From assembly GCA_015680635.1 (NCBI GenBank), contig JAABOA010000010.1, forward strand, positions 1 to 39,519: 39,519 bases of DNA, in the 5' to 3' direction. Below are positions 1 through 25,770 of this stretch, piece by piece. The position numbers and the translations under genes are program-made. Numbering within the stretch: the stretch's first letter is position 1; every line of letters begins with the position of its first letter. Source of the stretch: Lunasporangiospora selenospora (lineage: Eukaryota > Mortierellomycota > Mortierellomycetes > Mortierellales > Mortierellaceae). The notes under the pieces were generated by a model that was given only the letters and a program-made list of their open reading frames with translations, was not told the origin of the DNA and ran no database searches.

Positions 1-1170
1 CAACCTTGAGAAGCTGAGCCTTAAAGTCTCTTTCTATCTCTCCTTGCAGCATGAATATGACAACATCAGCCCTGTATCCAGTCTTGCCATTGAGATAATG
101 AGACCTGAGAGTATGGAACCAGGATTCCAACAGGTTGTTTGTATCGACATGTTGATGGTTCTATTGGCGACAAATGAAATATTAGTGGGAAGGTTTAGAC
201 ATCTCATCCATCACAGCAAACTATTCCACACACCTCTCGGACGAAAAGTACCTTCATTCTCTTCTTGTGATCAAGCCAATTTCGTTCCAGGAAAGCACAA
301 AAGCGCTCAGTCCCTGGAAAGGTGACTTTGAACTTTTGCCACAATCCATCCAGCTCCTCATTGGATCTAGCACCACATATGGTTTTAAGTGCAGGCCCCA
401 TTTGGTGCCAGTGTCTCGAAGATCTGTTAATGTAATGAGTGTCGATGGCTTTGATATCATTCATATAATCTCTTTTTTACATTGTAATTCTGCCACATGG
501 AAGAGGTAATAATAAATGGTAGTTTGTGGAAAGATAGCCTGCACGGCCACCGTCTCTATCGGTGAGCAATCCATCATGAACTTTGACACTTTAATCTGGC
601 ATGTATCCTTAAGCCAGCTTAGCCATTTCTTGAGCAAAATCTACAGATCTTAGTTAGAGACCATGTCATGCTTCAAGTTTCAATTATCCTCGAGCAGAGC
701 CAATTTCTTACGTTTATTCGGTACTGCAAATCATGAATGCAATGGGAATGCCTTTCTGTAACACGACATCCTTGACGAGGATGCCGAAGCTTCTCTGATC
801 TTTTTGACGTAAGGTACCAACGTCCTGACCACCTTATGTGTGGAGTCCATGCAAGCTATGAGGCTGTTGCATTGCATAATCTAACGGGACAATCATACAG
901 GGAAGTAGATTAGAGTCGACCAGGAAAGCACTAGCATAGTAAAACCAGACTTAACCCTACCTCCAAATGGAATTTCGTGCACCATGCAACCATGTACGAC
1001 TTCGCTTTGCCTTCTATCTCGATCTGGAACATGCCTTCTTCTCCTCCTCTCATCTTGATGTCCTTGATCCAAAGGCGAATGCCTTTGAAGATATCATTGT
1101 CTTTGGTGGCTTCTTTTATCTGCCGACGATAAAACACGCCATGCACAGACCTTTTAATTTACCCATCAGT
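1..1170 (-). pseudogene. MULE-type (Mutator-like) DDE transposase, degenerate, truncated by window edge
   Basis: On the minus strand, blocks typical of fungal Mutator-like transposases appear in order although they fall in different frames. A block with YRRQIKEATKD...IRLWIKDIKMRGG lies near 1040-1146. A first-Asp block ACMDSTHK has its Asp codon at 845-847. LVKDVVLQKGIPIAFMIC lies near 725-785. A second-Asp block FMMDCSPIE has its Asp at 569-571 and is followed by a degenerate FHV block. LWQKF...RNWLDHKKR lies near 265-355. A Glu block TNNLLESW has its Glu at 125-127. The D-D-E order fits the catalytic triad of the family. Stops and frame changes separate the blocks, so no full product can be made, though some breaks could be introns. 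The 3' end continues past base 1. It is divergent from the Fanzor remnant and probably part of the same element. Confidence 0.75.
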
Positions 1171-1463
1171 GTCGACGCTCTGGCGACCAATTGGACAAAA
1201 TGCTCGACGGCGGTTCTAGGTTTATGAAAAGCAGGACGTTGCAACCTCCATTGGTCTCTCTCCATCGCAGCTTACAGTTCTAGGGATTGTGAGCAGGAAT
1301 GATTACAGCAACAGTATCCCATCTCTTGGCATTCACTCCAATGGCAAATTGGTGAAAGAAATTCCCGACGGAGGTAATGATCATATCGGAAAGTATTATT
1401 CTAAGAGTGTTTGCATTGAACCATACTCACCATACACCCTAATCCAAATTAGACGTCGCTGAA

Positions 1464-4010
1464 ATGGTGACAAGTTACCTGAGGAACGATCAAGTCGTTC
1501 GTAAGAACAAATGCCGTGATGCTTTCTCTACTGCCATCAAGGTATTCACAACCATGTCCCAGACACCGGCTTCCGCCTCTGTTGAGGTATCGCCAGATGT
1601 GGTAGTATCAGATGATGTATTACGCTCCAAGATGGACAACATTCGCGACCAGTGGCTCAAGAACCAAAATGAAGAATATGAAAAACGCAGAGCTAAAAGA
1701 AGGTAAATACAATCATTGATGTGAACTCCAACAATGAATGTACTAGACTTAGTTTTCTAACAGCCTACCTTATTTAACAGGGAGTCAACAGACTCCAGAA
1801 CGCGACGGTATCAAGTCCTCGACCGCACCGACCTATATCACCGACCAAGATACTCACACAAAGAACGCTCTGAGCCATTCGTGAATCACGATGCTCCAGA
1901 AATCATGCATCAATACGCATTCAAGGCATGGCCACAGGTTCCCGAACCGCCAGATGAAACTCTTGCAGAGCCCGAGATAAAGAAGAAAGCCACGAATAAG
2001 AAACCGTTGCCTCCCGATGCAAACAAGGCAAAAATTCTCCAAAGGATGGCGTGGGAACACCCAACTGTCAACCTTGACGTTGGTACCGTTCGTGCCAATG
2101 TCCAAAGGACTCAAGGAGAAGGGGACTCGGCAAACATCGTCATCGAGCTCATTCATGGCGCGGTCTGAGAAGCATCCATTATCAAACGCCGATGCCAAGA
2201 ATTTTGGGCCGGTATCTTGAGGCAGTGTTGCTTTCACCAGATGTGTTCGATCTTCTTGAGGCATATATGCCCTCGTCTCACTAACCCAGACAGCAATGAC
2301 CACGATGACGAGGCTGGAGACAGACCAGTTGACATAGAAATGACTTTCATTCAGTGTTTTATAACATTTCTCTATTCCAACAACCTTCCACGTGAGAGCG
2401 ATATCGGCGTTATTGTCAACAATTTCATCCGTCGGCTAGAGCAGCTTGAGATCCCGCCCGAGCACGATAGAGGCCCTCTGGTCACTCGCAACAAGACTGA
2501 GTTCATCCCCTCCTGTCTTATTCGCTCTGCCGCTTCCCAGGTATCTGCTGAATTGCAAAGACACTACGAGCAAGGAACGGGCGAGCTGATAAACAAGGTA
2601 CCCTATTACACTTACAATGATTTTATTATTGTATTCACCTGCACAGAAACCAACTCTGCCAAACCACTTCTAGGCCAGAGATATGCAACGGAAGGGCCAA
2701 CTCTCTTCAACCCCATTTACTACAAATCCAGACGCTTCAGCCATTGAGAAGTTTTCCTATTACAACCAGCTCACTGGTTGTGCATGGAAGCTTATGCCGA
2801 GTTCACTCATTGAAAACGGATTCTTAACGTTCACTGAGTACAATTTGGCGGCATTCTTTTGCACAAGAATGTCTTGCGCGGATCTATCAGGACCGATGGG
2901 TTTTGCCTCCAGCTGCTAGCTTTCAAGCTGCGGGAGCTTTAGTCCGTCCGCTTCAAAAGGTATCGGAGTGGTTTGCTGCCCGACCCAGTTGTCTCTACCA
3001 TCGGCGGCACGATCTCATATCTCGGAATTGACCTCGGGCAGGCCTGTGTCGTTGGAGCCTGCGCACTACTTGCTAAAACAAGTGGCCAATGGAGAGACGT
3101 AAACGAAAGAAAAACAAAAAGAAACGCGGCAGTAGAAAGCGAGACAAAAAGAAGCGAGGAAGCGGAGGAAACTTCTCAAGATGTCGTTGAAGGAAGGAAT
3201 GAGGCAGAGAAATGTGCTCGGTACTTCAATCTTGCGGTCAAGCAAAAGGCTGTCTCACAGCCCACATTCCAGCACAGGAAATGGATGGAGTTCCAAAAAA
3301 AACCACCATAGTCAAGTCAGCTGAACATCGGATTCAGGACCATCACGATACTAACGAGGCAGTGGCGAACCATGGCCTTTCAATAGCCGATGTAGAATCG
3401 ACCCTTCCTGCAGTACATGGTGAAGGCGCACGATTGTCAGAGTATCTCGACCAGAGGAACAGGTTTCTGAATAATAGCGGTAGTAAGTTTAAAAAACACA
3501 AGTGGGACATGCGTCGTGCCAGAGCCGATAGCCTGCTACGAATTGTAGGAGGAAGCATAGGTGCCAGGTGTGACCAAGGTCATAATAGGTATCGGCTTGG
3601 GTGAGTTTTCATCGAATGCTAGGCTCTCTTCTCTGCACGAAACTTTTAAGGCATTCTTTGTCCAAAAGGTAGGTACCTCATCAGATCCACTCTTTCCCAT
3701 TGTCCATTGTTTGCGGCTCTTTCCGATTGTTCTTATCTCTACTACTAGGCAAGATTACTTGGATATGTGGTTGTTGGAGTGAACGAGTACTACACGTCCA
3801 AAAAAATGCCCTACTTGCAACAACTCCGGCGCTTGTACTGCCCCCATTATCGAAAGTTCATGCACCGGGCAATATGTGCCAGGTTATACTTGCGCAGATC
3901 AAGTCTCAACAACGACCGGATTATCCTTGGAAACAAGGCAGACGCAAGAGAAAGGCTCCAGCCACCAAGGAAGACTCAGCGAAGAAGGCGCGACTTGCAG
4001 AAGCTGTAGG
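1464..4010 (+). pseudogene. Fanzor-type TnpB-like RNA-guided nuclease homologue, degenerate
   Basis: Fanzor proteins are eukaryotic relatives of TnpB with a split RuvC nuclease fold and a zinc ribbon. The N-terminal part reads through exon 1464-1702, an in-frame GT-AG intron 1703-1780, and exon 1781-2165, then meets TGA at 2166-2168. The same frame continues to 2597, followed by a probable intron 2598-2646. Later blocks include GSIRTDGF (near 2883), a RuvC-I-like GIDLGQACVVGACALL (Asp codon 3030-3032), NLAVKQKAV (near 3230), HKWDMRRA...IVGGSIG (near 3500-3560), IGIGLGEFSS (near 3588), an in-frame intron 3669-3748, and GYVVVGVNEYYTSKK (3764-3805). The C-terminal zinc-ribbon and RuvC-III blocks are damaged: CPTC lies out of frame, CPHC has become CPHY, and the usual HRD reads HRA. 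At least one nonsense codon and several frameshifts make it inactive. Family assignment rests on recognised motifs, not a search. Confidence 0.8.
1703..1780 (+). other. Recognisable spliceosomal intron in the Fanzor remnant
   Basis: GTAAAT at 1703 and TTTAACAG ending at 1780 bound a 78-nt stretch with stops. Joining the flanks keeps one reading frame across a split Arg codon. A second intact intron with exact frame continuity lies at 3669-3748. Retained splice signals suggest the copy was once an expressed, spliced gene before it decayed. Confidence 0.65.
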
Positions 4011-4361
4011 ACGCGGTTGTCCCCTCCCATTCTTTTGTGTGATTGCAAACACACTCTCAGATTGTCTGCTCGCGCTGGAATTACTCACTTCGGTGACGTA
4101 ATTTCAGCCGCCGATGCGTGGTGTGCTGATGCTCAAAGTTCATTTCCATGCACCCTTTGACATCTCCATTGCTTCAATACACCCCAATTCAACAACTAGG
4201 CCGGAGAAATCGTCGTTTTACCCTCTCTTGAGACACAATTCGACCCTCCAGCATTTTGCCCTGAGTCGACAATCATCCATTCCTGCCCTGCACCTCCTCC
4301 CTTTTGATTTCACACACCTTGATACCAGTGATAATTCGACTAGTGGTCGACCACCAGTACC
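4011..4361 (+). promoter_or_regulatory. Upstream region of V-ATPase subunit a
   Basis: This 351-bp stretch lies between the end of the Fanzor remnant and the V-ATPase start codon. From about 4150 it is pyrimidine-rich on the plus strand, as is common for fungal 5' leaders. I see no clear TATA box. The right end of the transposon remnant must lie somewhere in it, so part of the promoter may be transposon-derived. Confidence 0.4.
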
Positions 4362-21306: not shown

Positions 21307-21334
21307 GACTGTAAACCGCTGACTGTAAACCGCT
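21307..21334. repeat. Perfect tandem duplication, 2 x 14 bp, upstream of the first protease
   Basis: The unit GACTGTAAACCGCT occurs twice directly adjacent and ends 60 bp before the TATA box of the protease gene at 21515. The position suggests a duplicated upstream element, but no factor is identified. Confidence 0.8.
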
Positions 21335-21394
21335 TTAGTGGAGGTAAGGGAAGTCTGGACCACAACATGCATCATACCGATGGTCAAGAATTTG

Positions 21395-21401
21395 TATAAA
21401 A
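21395..21401 (+). promoter_or_regulatory. TATA box of the first subtilisin-like protease
   Basis: TATAAAA sits 120 bp upstream of the start codon within TTGTATAAAAG, a core also present upstream of the second protease (24389-24395). A pyrimidine-rich leader follows. Confidence 0.65.
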
Positions 21402-21514
21402 GCTTGACATTGAGGTGCCATAGCAACATTATTCCTCACTCCTCTTCAGCTCACTCTCCTCTTCCAGACTTCTTTCTAACTACCACTCCAAGTAAACCCT
21501 TCCAAGCTTCCAAC

Positions 21515-22781
21515 ATGAAGTACACCTGCCTCGTCATTGCCGCCTGCGTGGCCGTTTTCAGCTCCTCCTCCGCCGCTCCTTTGATCCGCGGCAATGCCGG
21601 CAAGCCTATCCCCGACTCGTACATTGTCGTCCTCAAGGAAGGAAACAAGGTCGAGGACTTTATCCCCAAGTTTGATGCCATTGCTCGCCGCCAGAACGGC
21701 CGCGGTCGCAAGCCAACCATTGGTCAACAGTACCGTGCTATCCAGGGTCTCTCTGTCACCGTCAACCAGGCTGCTTTGAAGGAGCTCCTTGCTGCCGAGG
21801 AGGTCGAGTACGTTGAGGAGGATCAAATCGTTACCTTGAGTGGAACTCAGACCAGCCCTCCCTCCTGGGGTCTCCCTCGCGTCTCGCAGCGCAACCTCAA
21901 CACTAACGCTCCCTACTACTACCAGGATCAGGCTGGCTCCGGTGTTACTGCCTATGTGATTGATACTGGCATCAACACTGGCCATATTGAATTTGGCGGC
22001 CGTGCTACCATGGGTGCCAACTTCATCCAGGGCTCTGCCAACACCGATGAGAATGGCCACGGTACCCACGTTGCCGGTACTATTGGTGGAACCAATTACG
22101 GTGTTGCCAAGAAGGTCAGACTGGTCGGTGTCAAGGTCTTGAACGCTCAGGGTCAGGGCGCCTTCTCGGGTATTATCGCCGGTATGGACTGGGTTGCTCA
22201 GCGCGCTCGCGGCACCAAGGCTGTCGTTAACATGTCTCTCGGTAAGTCAACAGCCCGTCTTATTGTGCAATGGTTCGAGGCGTGAATTCGAGACTTACGA
22301 TGAATAACTGTCCCTACATCCGATACTAGGTGGTGGAAAGTCCCAGGCTGTCGACTCGGCTGCTACTCGCCTTTTCAATGCTGGCATTCCTCTGATTGTT
22401 GCTGCTGGAAACGATGCCCGCGCTGACGCCTGCAATGGCTCGCCCTCCGGAGCTCAGGGAGCTCTCACGGTTGGTGCCTCGGATCGCTATGACAGAATCG
22501 CCTCTTTCTCGTCCTGGGGTCGTTGCGTTGATATCTTTGGTCCTGGTGTCGACATTCTCTCTGCTTGGATCGGTGGCTCCAACGCTCGCAACACCATCTC
22601 TGGTACCTCGATGGCCACTCCTCACGTTGTTGGAGTTGCTGCTTTGTTGTTGTCTGCGGATTCCTCTTTGACCAGTGCTCAGGCTGTCTACAACAAGCTC
22701 ACCCAGACCGCCACCAACAACGTTGTCACTGGCAACCTCAACGGCTCGGCTAACCGTCTGGTCTTCAACAGCGCTGTCTAA
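21515..22781 (+). CDS. Secreted subtilisin-like serine protease (S8A, proteinase K/cerevisin type), 2 exons, 392 aa
   Basis: This is an extracellular endopeptidase made as a pre-pro-enzyme. Exons are 21515-22241 and 22330-22781. Residues 1-21 form a signal peptide (MKYTCLVIAACVAVFSSSSA). An inhibitor-I9-like propeptide runs from about 34 to 108 (SYIVVLKEGNK ... VEYVEEDQIVTL), and the mature enzyme probably begins near SPPSWGLPRVSQR. The triad is Asp150 (VIDTGI), His182 (GHGTHVAGT) and Ser336 (GTSMATPH), with oxyanion Asn270 (AAGND). Cys277 and Cys308 are candidates for a disulfide and are conserved in its neighbour. The gene has a TATA box and a strongly biased codon choice, suggesting high expression. 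It is paralogous to the gene at 24571 but has an 88-nt intron after NMSLG that the other lacks. An upstream in-frame ATG at 21338 lies before the TATA box and is rejected. Confidence 0.95.
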
Positions 22782-22943
22782 GCAAATCCAACTCGTTACG
22801 GACATTCATGTCCTCACCATGAATAGGGCGACCGTTTTCTTTTCTCTGGTCATCAATCTTTCCTGCCCTTTTTATCTTTAACACGTAGTCTGTCGCTGTG
22901 CCTGGCGCACATGCAGTACAACTTTCCTGACTGGTCAGGGAAC

Positions 22944-22949
22944 AATAAA
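22944..22949 (+). terminator. Polyadenylation signal AATAAA after the first protease
   Basis: An exact AATAAA lies 163 bp past the stop codon and is followed by an A-rich stretch. Confidence 0.5.
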
Positions 22950-24388
22950 ATTAAAAAACCCTCTTGAAGAAATATGAAGTTTGTCGTGTCTCATAACTAC
23001 CATAGTCATCTCAGTTACCGTAGGCACCGCTTCGCTCGGCCAAAATAGATGGTGCAGCTTACTATCACCCTACATTACCTTGAAGCGTTGACTCAAAGGA
23101 AATGAAGAGGTGGTTAAGACACCGTGTGACAACAGGGGGACAAGGCCCGGGCTCTAATCATCTCCACATGAGTTGGAGTGCTGAAGGAAATACAACGGTT
23201 ACAAGAGGCGAAAACTTGCACGACGTTGAATATTTTGATATTTCGAGGTCACCTCGTTTAGAAGTCGCGGATAGTGGAGTTTCAAGGAATATTTTGGCAA
23301 AGATAGGGCCCAATGAGGGAGCCATGCTCCTCTTTTTCCTCGGGAAGGAAGGCGGTAGAGAAGGGACTGTGAAGGACTTAGGTGGCAGTGTAGAGGGGGG
23401 GGGGGGAACGACAGCTTATTAGGAAGGATCTCTCGCAAGAGACGCGTAAAAGATCATATCTTCTATCACTCTTGACAGTCGATCTTCAAGCTACATACCG
23501 TTTTCTCACATATCTTTTCTCATAGACAACAAGATAGTGTAAAAGGGGACAGGTTGGGAGGAATCAAGGTTTGTGCCTAGCACGTTTCGAGGTACTACAT
23601 CTTGTAAACCCTGGGCTCTCTGGTGGATAAGAGTCAATTACAAAGCATGGGTGGACCCGCCCTCTGGCGGTTTCCAGTTGACTCTCAAACTCGCACAAGC
23701 GGGGATGCGGAAAAGGGTTTACGAGGGTGGGAATGTAAAGCGGGGAAACCCAGTAACCATGAGAGGCAATGTAGTTTCTGGCATGCACCATGTATTAAGA
23801 ATTTAGTGTCATATATCCTTGGTGACATACCCGGAGCACGGGCGATCCTTACTATGCTTCCAAGTGACACTGCGTTAGCGCCCTTCAGCATTAATAAGGT
23901 ATCAGCTGGTGGGAACTACGGGAAAGGATAGGTAGGAACGAAGGCCCGCAAATGTACCTAGAATGAGATGTTATTTAACCTTGGAGCAAAATGCAGGAGG
24001 CACGGTTACACTTTATCCAGGGATAACGCTCGAGCGCCCTCCCAGCGATGTGATACGGTCAAGCTCGATCTGGTGCTCTCAAATTACATTTTCGACTGGC
24101 AGTCCGCTCTTGTGATGCCTGCTTAGGTAGAGTCGCACGGAGGAATAGCCCTTTTGGCTTCTTGAGTTCGCTGGATTGGTTGGGCAGTGCATGTACCTGG
24201 ATGAGTCTAGAGCTCTTTCAATTGCTCTTGAAATGATGTGGAGACGATATCAAATTCAGCATCCAATGGCATTCTTATGCAAGGGTGGCAAGAGAAGGGA
24301 CCCTGTCAGTTACACCTCGGTCATATTCTCTTTTAGGCCCTGGTAAGCAGTAGAGCCTTTGTTTGTTCGATGGCTTCCTTTTCTTTTG
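22950..24388. other. Intergenic region between the two proteases, no supported gene
   Basis: About 1.4 kb without a recognisable gene. It holds a run of 12 G at 23395-23406 and a nested inverted repeat at 23604-23722, listed separately. If the proteases arose by tandem duplication, this spacer has diverged too far from the DNA upstream of the first copy for homology to be seen by eye, apart from the TATA core. Confidence 0.55.
23604..23722. repeat. Nested inverted repeat, three stems
   Basis: Three perfect arm pairs are nested on one axis. The outer arms are GTAAACCCT (23604-23612) and AGGGTTTAC (23714-23722). The middle arms are AGAGTCAA (23630-23637) and TTGACTCT (23678-23685). A core hairpin CCGCC/GGCGG has a 4-nt loop (23657-23670). 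The arrangement could be a foldback element remnant or a structured RNA. No terminal duplication was found. Confidence 0.6.
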
Positions 24389-24395
24389 TATAAAA
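24389..24395 (+). promoter_or_regulatory. TATA box of the second subtilisin-like protease
   Basis: TATAAAA, within the same TTGTATAAAAG core as at the first protease, lies 182 bp upstream of the start codon. The leader that follows is rich in C and A, with repeated CAATC/CAACA-like stretches. Confidence 0.65.
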
Positions 24396-24570
24396 GGTGC
24401 ATGACCAATCCATATTTTGTTCCTCAGAACCATCATCACTCCTCTCCCACTCCACAGCAACCAAGCCTACGCCCACCACAGCTTTGACAAGCAATAAAAA
24501 AGCGATCTAGCCTACACGATCAACACTCTACAACACTCCCTCAACTCCCTTCAAAACCTCAATCATCATC

Positions 24571-25770
24571 ATGAAGTGCCTTTCTCTCCTCGTCGTTGCC
24601 TGCTTGGCCTGGTCTTCCGCCTCCACCACCGATGCGGCTACCTTCATCAACAACGGTGCTGGAACTGCCGCCGTCCCCGGCTCGTTCATCGTTGTCCTCA
24701 AGGACTCCAAGAGTGTCAAGAGCTTCGAGCCCAAGTGGAACCAGATGCTGAACCGCCACAACAGCCGTAATGGCCGCCGTCCTAGAATCAACCACAAGTT
24801 CAAGGCCATGCCTGGCTTCACTGTCACCGGCTCGAATGCGACCTTGACAGAGCTCCTCAACATGGATGAGGTCGAGTACATCGAGCAGGATGCCATTGCC
24901 TCCATTCAGGCCACTCAGGGTAACCCTCCCTCCTGGGGTCTTCCTCGTGTCAGCCGCCGTGGCGCGCTGAACGGTGGCGCTGCTGCCTACAACTTCCCAG
25001 ACTCTGCTGGCAGTGGAGTCACCGCCTATGTGATCGACACTGGTATCAACACCGGTCACGTCGACTTTGGTGGTCGTGCTACCATGGGAGCCAACTTTAT
25101 CCGAGGCTCCCCTAACACTGATCAGAACGGCCATGGTACCCACGTCGCTGGTACGATTGGTGGAAACACTTATGGTGTTGCCAAGAAGGTCAGACTGGTC
25201 GGTGTCAAGGTTCTTGATGCTCAGGGCCAGGGTGCCTTCTCGGGTATCATCGCCGGTATGGACTGGGTTGCCCAGCGCGCTCGTGGCACCCGGGCTGTCG
25301 TCAACATGTCCCTTGGCGGTGGTGCCTCCCGCGCTGTAAACGACGCCGTCTCTCGCATGGTTAATGCCGGTATCCCTGTGATCGTCGCCGCTGGTAACGA
25401 CCCAAATGTCAATGCTTGCAATGGCTCGCCCTCGGGCGCTTCTGCTGCCCTCACTGTTGGCGCCTCAGATATCCGTGATAACGTCGCAAGCTTCTCCTCC
25501 TACGGTAACTGCGTCAAGATCTTTGGACCTGGTGTCCAGATCACCTCCGCCTGGATTGGCGGCTCTAACTCTCGCAACACCATCTCAGGCACTTCCATGG
25601 CCACTCCTCACGTCGCTGGAGTTGCCGCTTTGTACATGGGCGCCAACCCCAACCTCCGATCCCCTCAACAGGTTTACAGTGCCTTGACCAGCAATGCCGT
25701 CAGGAACGTCATTCGCGGCAACACCCGTGGTGCTGCTAACCTCATGGTCAACAATGGTGCCAACAACTAA
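24571..25770 (+). CDS. Secreted subtilisin-like serine protease (S8A), single exon, 399 aa
   Basis: This is the second copy of the protease pair. Residues 1-23 form a signal peptide (MKCLSLLVVACLAWSSAS then TTDAA). An I9-like propeptide spans about 38-113 (SFIVVLKDSKSVKSF ... VEYIEQDAI), and the mature part begins near PPSWGLPRVSRR. The triad is Asp156, His188 and Ser342, with oxyanion Asn276. Cys283 and Cys314 match the Cys pair of the first copy. The gene is uninterrupted, reading NMSLGGGAS straight across the point where the first copy has its intron. Similarity to the first copy is strongest around the active-site Asp and His and includes a stretch of 38 identical bases (25174-25211 against 22100-22137). 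The propeptides and C-termini differ more. No exact AATAAA is seen in the 248 bp after the stop. Confidence 0.95.
   Translation: MKCLSLLVVACLAWSSASTTDAATFINNGAGTAAVPGSFIVVLKDSKSVKSFEPKWNQMLNRHNSRNGRRPRINHKFKAMPGFTVTGSNATLTELLNMDEVEYIEQDAIASIQATQGNPPSWGLPRVSRRGALNGGAAAYNFPDSAGSGVTAYVIDTGINTGHVDFGGRATMGANFIRGSPNTDQNGHGTHVAGTIGGNTYGVAKKVRLVGVKVLDAQGQGAFSGIIAGMDWVAQRARGTRAVVNMSLGGGASRAVNDAVSRMVNAGIPVIVAAGNDPNVNACNGSPSGASAALTVGASDIRDNVASFSSYGNCVKIFGPGVQITSAWIGGSNSRNTISGTSMATPHVAGVAALYMGANPNLRSPQQVYSALTSNAVRNVIRGNTRGAANLMVNNGANN

Follow-up and report, generated by a model that had tools for sequence, protein, structure and literature searches.

The first 4127 bases of a 39,519-nucleotide stretch of Lunasporangiospora selenospora DNA (contig JAABOA010000010.1, positions 1 to 39,519; hereafter the window) carry the remains of a Mutator-like element (MULE) transposase and, head to head with it, those of a Fanzor1-type nuclease gene preceded by a flap-nuclease-like domain. 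We tentatively read them, with a confidence just short of even, as an internally deleted remnant of a divergent composite MULE/flap nuclease–Fanzor1 transposon of Mortierellaceae-type fungi. This copy is dead: frameshifts and stops break its frames. The joining of a flap nuclease to Fanzor is apparently the new part of the finding. The features of the region are the following.

2 to 1191, minus strand: decayed MULE transposase of lineage A, located by tblastn with the relative P0018; truncated on its 5' side at about 1147, its 3' side lying off the contig start.
1147 to 1177, no strand: end of the MULE homology and start of the flap-nuclease homology, both genes being truncated.
1145 to 1373, plus strand: tail of an XPG/FEN1/EXO1-like domain (end of the I-region and H3TH-like part) with one internal stop; 43% to the domain of copy C218, E 4e-8; profiles containing this stretch matched EXO1/FEN1 in PDB.
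1374 to 1452, plus strand: probable 79-bp intron (GTAATG...ATTAG, spliced by eye) separating the tail of the flap-nuclease domain from the N-terminal part of Fanzor.
1453 to 2600, plus strand: decayed N-terminal half of Fanzor (residues 7-393 of P0009 at 1464-2600).
2683 to 3311, plus strand: middle of Fanzor with the RuvC-I-type block YLGIDLGQ (D at about 3030); matches to P0001, P0002 and P0009.
3332 to 3945, plus strand: C-terminal part of Fanzor with EYYTSKK, a broken zinc ribbon and HRA in place of HRD; matches to P0010, P0013 and P0001.
4040 to 4127, plus strand: right end, a hairpin region with a conserved 3' arm (4085-4121), marked by its motif and its fold z-score; candidate guide-RNA scaffold and element terminus.

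The MULE transposase and the Fanzor gene

An earlier note, made from the sequence alone, had placed a MULE transposase on the minus strand and a Fanzor gene on the plus strand, and both are borne out. Four pieces of P0018 (Lunasporangiospora selenospora, 'MULE transposase doma...') match the minus strand in order in tblastn: three at 160-2, 413-234 and 844-485 (summed E 9.6e-70) and a fourth at 1191-994 (E 2.3e-17). CMDSTHK, SKFMMDC and HVDTNNLLESW, readable on the same strand, are what we take to be the D, D and E blocks of MULE. The assignment to the MULE DDE transposases comes from homology to P0018 and P0019; with the Pfam MULE model P0019 falls just under the cut-off (2.9e-5), and the piece from copy C125 is under it as well (0.0017).

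Genome-wide searches covered an 8.2-Mb assembly of 475 contigs, in which the window is contig C10; the numbers of matched contigs are lower bounds. The Pfam model PF10551 matched nothing in the whole genome, and single relatives were therefore used as MULE queries. Two such queries matched at least seven contigs (C10, C125, C218, C421, C175, C68 and, weakly, C144). Two diverged lineages are seen, A (window and C125) and B (C218), with 48% amino acid identity between C218 and C125. The window MULE is 80% identical to that of C125 at the DNA level, the similarity ending at 1147. Because base 1 of the window is the contig start, the 3' side of the MULE and any left end are missing from the window. 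The named protein relatives come from Mortierella, Podila, Lunasporangiospora, Actinomortierella, Gamsiella, Entomortierella and Dissophora, with one distant MULE protein from Podosphaera. A taxonomy look-up places Lunasporangiospora in the Mortierellaceae, the family to which the relatives' other genera presumably belong, Podosphaera apart.

Over 1464-3945 the plus strand matches, in order, pieces of P0009, P0013, P0001, P0002 and P0010, the best matches being those of P0010 (E 3e-34) and P0009 (E 1e-32). Window 3749-4009 matches the Pfam family Cas12f1-like_TNB (PF07282) under the cut-off (E 0.0034), and P0013 matches this zinc-ribbon model above it. Fanzor1 proteins are described by the pattern D-X(125,275)-[TS][TS]xx-C4 zinc finger-X(5,50)-RD (Bao and Jurka 2013, PMC3627910; cited, like the other papers, from excerpts). 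The relatives show it, with a D-to-TS gap of 220 in P0010 and 151 in P0013, then CxxC...CxxC and HRD; their TS site reads YTSK, which is not strictly [TS][TS]xx, and both positions were checked by eye. Of these features, the window copy retains the first D and the TS; its second zinc-finger cysteine pair is broken (CPHY) and its terminal HRD has become HRA. Copy C174 retains the entire C-terminal part. In PDB, neither window 3783-4160 alone nor the C196 Fanzor found a match, and the sole match of P0013 was a TnpB-like protein (E 0.19). Fanzor matches lie on at least 20 contigs. C196 (L023:2634-5880) carries two tandem Fanzor fragments with one open frame of 465 amino acids; no MULE match was found on that contig.

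The two genes are not separated by the spacer of about 300 bp that had been described. MULE similarity stops at 1147 and plus-strand homology starts at 1145-1177, with the flap-nuclease-like domain that is found upstream of Fanzor in copy C218. Both genes are cut at this junction: the MULE is without its N-terminal part, and the plus-strand gene is without the front of the flap-nuclease domain.

The flap-nuclease-like domain and its junction with Fanzor

Matches to the domain were obtained on at least eight contigs, one of them weak. The counts given below out of seven loci refer to the window, C218, C466, C421, C149, C115 and C356; a place on C303 (E 0.021) is excluded from them, yet is among the 26 contigs of the chance model described later. 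EAD, DSD and NDY blocks, which we take to be catalytic (metal-binding), occur in several copies. Profiles assembled from pieces of decayed copies, joined by eye, were compared with PDB. The four-copy profile matched EXO1/FEN1 in 7 of 7 cases (best E 0.0074) and a seven-sequence profile EXO1/FEN1/RAD2/XPG in 23 of 23 (best E 1.5e-4). With a six-copy profile including the N-terminal part from C421 and C356, 30 of the 34 matches were FEN1/EXO1/RAD2/XPG (best E 2.2e-7), the remaining four having E values of 0.71 or worse. These comparisons point to a domain homologous to the XPG/FEN1/EXO1 flap nucleases through the I-region and the H3TH part. Two results weigh against it: the matches to Pfam XPG_I, XPG_I_2 and DUF188, although coinciding in place in several copies, are all below threshold, and the C421 copy matched no XPG family in Pfam, its best match being Pox_G5 (E 0.027).

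A full-length flap nuclease–Fanzor fusion, reading across the putative intron, is strongly suggested by the sequence, and no intact open reading frame (ORF) or transcript spans it. Once the probable intron is removed from the window, a single frame of 136 amino acids (1220-1706) stays open from the end of the flap-nuclease domain into the N-terminal part of Fanzor. Two annotated proteins related to the window Fanzor family begin within the tail of the domain. In tests with 1000 shuffles, the score of the window against the N-terminus of P0013 was reached by none and that against P0002 by one; for C466 the numbers were 0 against the window, 2 against P0013, 1 against P0002 and 67 against P0009. 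Fanzor lies directly downstream of the domain in the window and in C218, the latter having both ORFs in a row. The C466 locus runs into the same linker and then into the contig end; that of C421 runs into the same LG..TNFK.IK segment (by eye). Downstream of the domain, C149 retains a short HRD remnant (0 of 1000 shuffles) and C115 no more than 13 residues that match P0002 (E 0.031). C356 speaks against the fusion: no Fanzor piece was found downstream on its strand within the stretch examined.

One element or several

A MULE and a Fanzor or flap-nuclease gene lie head to head within about 1.3 kb on four of the seven MULE contigs (C10, C125, C218 and C421). A crude chance model, applied to loci that were found partly by following the MULE–Fanzor pairing itself, gives p 2.2e-4 for the sharing of contigs if placement is random (2.4e-3 when larger numbers are assumed), p 1.8e-9 for four head-to-head pairs within 1.3 kb (2.3e-4 with 20-fold clustering) and 0.004 for all four pairs falling in one of the four possible end-to-end arrangements. 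In the best-preserved pair, on C421, the flap-nuclease N-terminus lies at 1128 (minus strand) and MULE homology begins at 1276 (plus strand), the first 56 residues (P0021 numbering) being unmatched; no element end was recognised in the 148 bp between the two 5' regions. On C218, a 41-49-bp sliver of MULE-A stands just 5' of the flap-nuclease–Fanzor gene (score 25; the highest of 200 shuffles was 20). The divergent arrangement is common to four loci; the right end is the only end in common and is seen at three of them (window, C125 and C218).

This right end extends to about 4127, beyond the edge of 4050 first proposed. Its 19-bp core occurs at eight places in the genome, against none for a reversed control pattern, and in an alignment of six copies about 30 bases are nearly invariant, the flanks diverging beyond them. 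The hairpin has a z-score below -2 in four of the six copies tested: C174 (-5.5), C196 (-5.4), C218 (-3.7) and the window (-2.1, matched in stability by 5 of 200 shuffles). Ranked within its own locus, the hairpin was equalled or exceeded in stability by 2 of 238 sliding windows for C174, 2 of 409 for C196, 21 of 409 for C218, 11 of 283 for C325, 85 of 1643 for the window and 129 of 291 for C125. The hairpin is placed 3' of the Fanzor ORF, which is where Fanzor guide RNAs lie (PMC10432273), and is a candidate for the guide-RNA scaffold. C325 (L012), C415 (L025) and C1 (L026) carry the motif with no Fanzor match within the stretches examined, and are possible solitary ends. The motif was also considered as a terminal inverted repeat (TIR) and rejected, its inverted partner not being seen.

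The earlier note had proposed one divergent MULE–Fanzor transposon. The recurrent head-to-head pairing upholds it in part; a series of other results weighs against it. Fanzor copies without a MULE neighbour, which that note would have counted against its proposal, do exist: 17 of the 20 Fanzor contigs had no match to the two MULE queries (E 0.01 or better), many of their pieces being without a 5' side, and at four of the seven flap-nuclease loci (C356, C149, C466 and C115) no MULE was found within 3.1-4.3 kb upstream. Three of the seven MULE contigs (C175, C68 and C144) gave neither a Fanzor nor a flap-nuclease match. TIRs were not found where they were looked for, and no inverted counterpart of the right end turned up. 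Since both ends are visible in no copy, a target site duplication (TSD), which is 8-11 bp long in MULEs, could not be delimited, and none was found. The junctions of the MULE with the other gene fall at differing places and truncate one or both genes. Neither C125 (z -0.07) nor C325 (z -1.4) has a significant hairpin, and the folds of C415 and C1, made without a z-score, are weak. Module identities are discordant: 77% for the MULE versus 57% for Fanzor between window and C125 (amino acids), and 48% versus 79% between C218 and C125, the latter softened only by the MULE-A sliver of C218. Finally, C125 and C218 are mosaics that include a long terminal repeat (LTR)-like sequence (both) and a miniature inverted-repeat transposable element (MITE; C218).

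We therefore considered a transposon nest, in which the MULE and the flap-nuclease–Fanzor gene are separate elements inserted in or beside each other in repeat-rich islands, the window being an old rearrangement junction. This is a serious alternative, to which we give somewhat less than an even chance, and the composite is favoured over it only narrowly. The truncation of both genes at the window junction, the packing of multiple repeat types in C125 and C218, the missing partners (four of seven flap-nuclease loci, three of seven MULE contigs) and the discordant identities all speak for a nest. But all four pairs are head to head, their closeness keeps a low p value in the crude model even with 20-fold clustering, and on C421 the two 5' regions survive, separated by 148 bp in which no end was recognised.

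The mosaics themselves were dissected. Within 5 kb, C125 holds an N-terminal Fanzor fragment, the LTR-like repeat, MULE-A and half a Fanzor. Insertion of a MULE into a single Fanzor gene was judged unlikely there: the right half shares 86% identity with C218, to which the left fragment, seemingly of another lineage, gave no blastn match. C218 contains MULE-B, the MITE, the LTR-like repeat and the MULE-A sliver. The block 90% identical between C125 and C218 was rejected as element structure; it is a repeat of 216 bp (L010:3153-3368, L024:3149-3361), presumably an LTR, with 13 matches on 11 contigs, found inside the two MULE–Fanzor mosaics. Likewise, the idea that a 94% match of C325 to C218 (117 bp) marks a composite with an internal deletion was dropped, the match being due to a palindromic MITE-like repeat (L024:2192-2308) inside the C218 MULE, also present on C325, C337 and partly C427.

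In a third explanation, which we regard as improbable, the flap-nuclease–Fanzor gene would be an element of its own, comparable to the Spu-1 elements of Saito et al. (2023): it has a hairpin end, lacks a transposase and is moved in trans, and MULEs of the two lineages have a tendency to insert immediately upstream. The presence of two such diverged lineages on the same side of Fanzor fits this, as do the motifs of C325, C415 and C1, which resemble 'ghost loci' (PMC10432273). However, no left end was located for such an element, nor any MULE TIR or TSD between the two genes.

On the composite reading, intact copies would be moved by the MULE transposase, and the right-end hairpin with flanking DNA would be transcribed as a guide RNA. 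Fanzor could then cut the corresponding unoccupied site on the sister chromatid or homologous chromosome, and the fused 5'-flap nuclease might trim or resect the broken end, so that repair would copy the element back in. What the sequences show are the homologies of the proteins, the order of their domains, the conservation of the right end and the recurring head-to-head pairs; the single element, the intron with the full-length fusion, the guide RNA and all activities are inferred from these. That Mortierellaceae carry a divergent MULE with an EXO1/FEN1-like–Fanzor fusion as cargo, one protein making the guided break and processing its ends in favour of homology-directed recopying, is a more speculative proposal which we consider rather doubtful.

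Past the right end, from 4363 on (about 240 bp further), the window reads like what we take to be a host gene for V-ATPase subunit a. Two adjacent ORFs at 21329-25770 are presumably subtilisin-like proteases.

Comparison with known Fanzor elements

Fanzors are eukaryotic RNA-guided nucleases whose role for their transposons is open (PMC10432273). If our interpretation is true, a Fanzor that travels on a transposon and brings its own flap/5' nuclease would suggest a link from guided cutting to end processing and repair-driven recopying. Engineered nuclease–exonuclease fusions exist, and the flap nuclease–Fanzor protein would be their natural counterpart. No report of a Fanzor joined to an XPG/FEN1/EXO1-type domain was found in the open literature, of which our coverage was partial, so that one of Fanzor with FEN1 is not excluded; one review, in the part available, terms viral homologues 'Fanzor flap endonuclease homologs'. 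The Fanzor-linked domain resembles FEN1, EXO1 and XPG(Rad2) in the order of its I-region and H3TH-like part and in the EAD, DSD and NDY blocks of several copies. Unlike them, it is highly diverged, multi-copy, decayed and N-terminal to Fanzor.

The window gene and SpuFz1 of Spizellomyces (PMC10432273; Saito et al. 2023) are both of the TnpB type. A guide RNA, coming from the 3' inverted repeat, has been shown for SpuFz1, and 'ghost' loci have that RNA and no protein; for the window a guide RNA is only predicted. The excerpts of that paper describe no flap-nuclease domain in SpuFz1, whereas the window gene has an apparent one. Fz1 proteins of Parasitella and Rhizopus with an FRI domain (PMC11423790) are also Fanzor1 proteins of early-diverging fungi with an extra domain, but FRI is linked with cyclophilin and the extra domain of the window is XPG/FEN1/EXO1-like.

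MCi-2 and MCi-5 of Mucor have no recognizable TIRs, as in the window family (PMC3627910). MCi-2 has a conserved 3' Fanzor side and variable 5' regions, one subfamily having a partial Crypton transposase, and three MCi-5 copies carry a Harbinger-type transposase. In contrast, the transposase of the window is a divergently placed MULE, and its Fanzor has a flap-nuclease-like domain. Fanzor1 is also known from MuDr-type elements of Rhizopus, Phycomyces and Mucor (ROr-4, PBl-3 and MCi-4), which share with the window the linkage of a Fanzor1-type protein with the MuDr/MULE superfamily in early-diverging fungi. According to the same excerpts, these elements have MuDR-like TIRs and 9-bp TSDs and no MuDR transposase; in the window a MULE transposase adjoins, and TIRs and TSDs were not found. 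The association of MULE and Fanzor therefore varies a theme already known; a MULE that has its own transposase and stands beside a Fanzor would supply what is absent from these transposase-less MuDr-type Fanzor elements of other early-diverging fungi.

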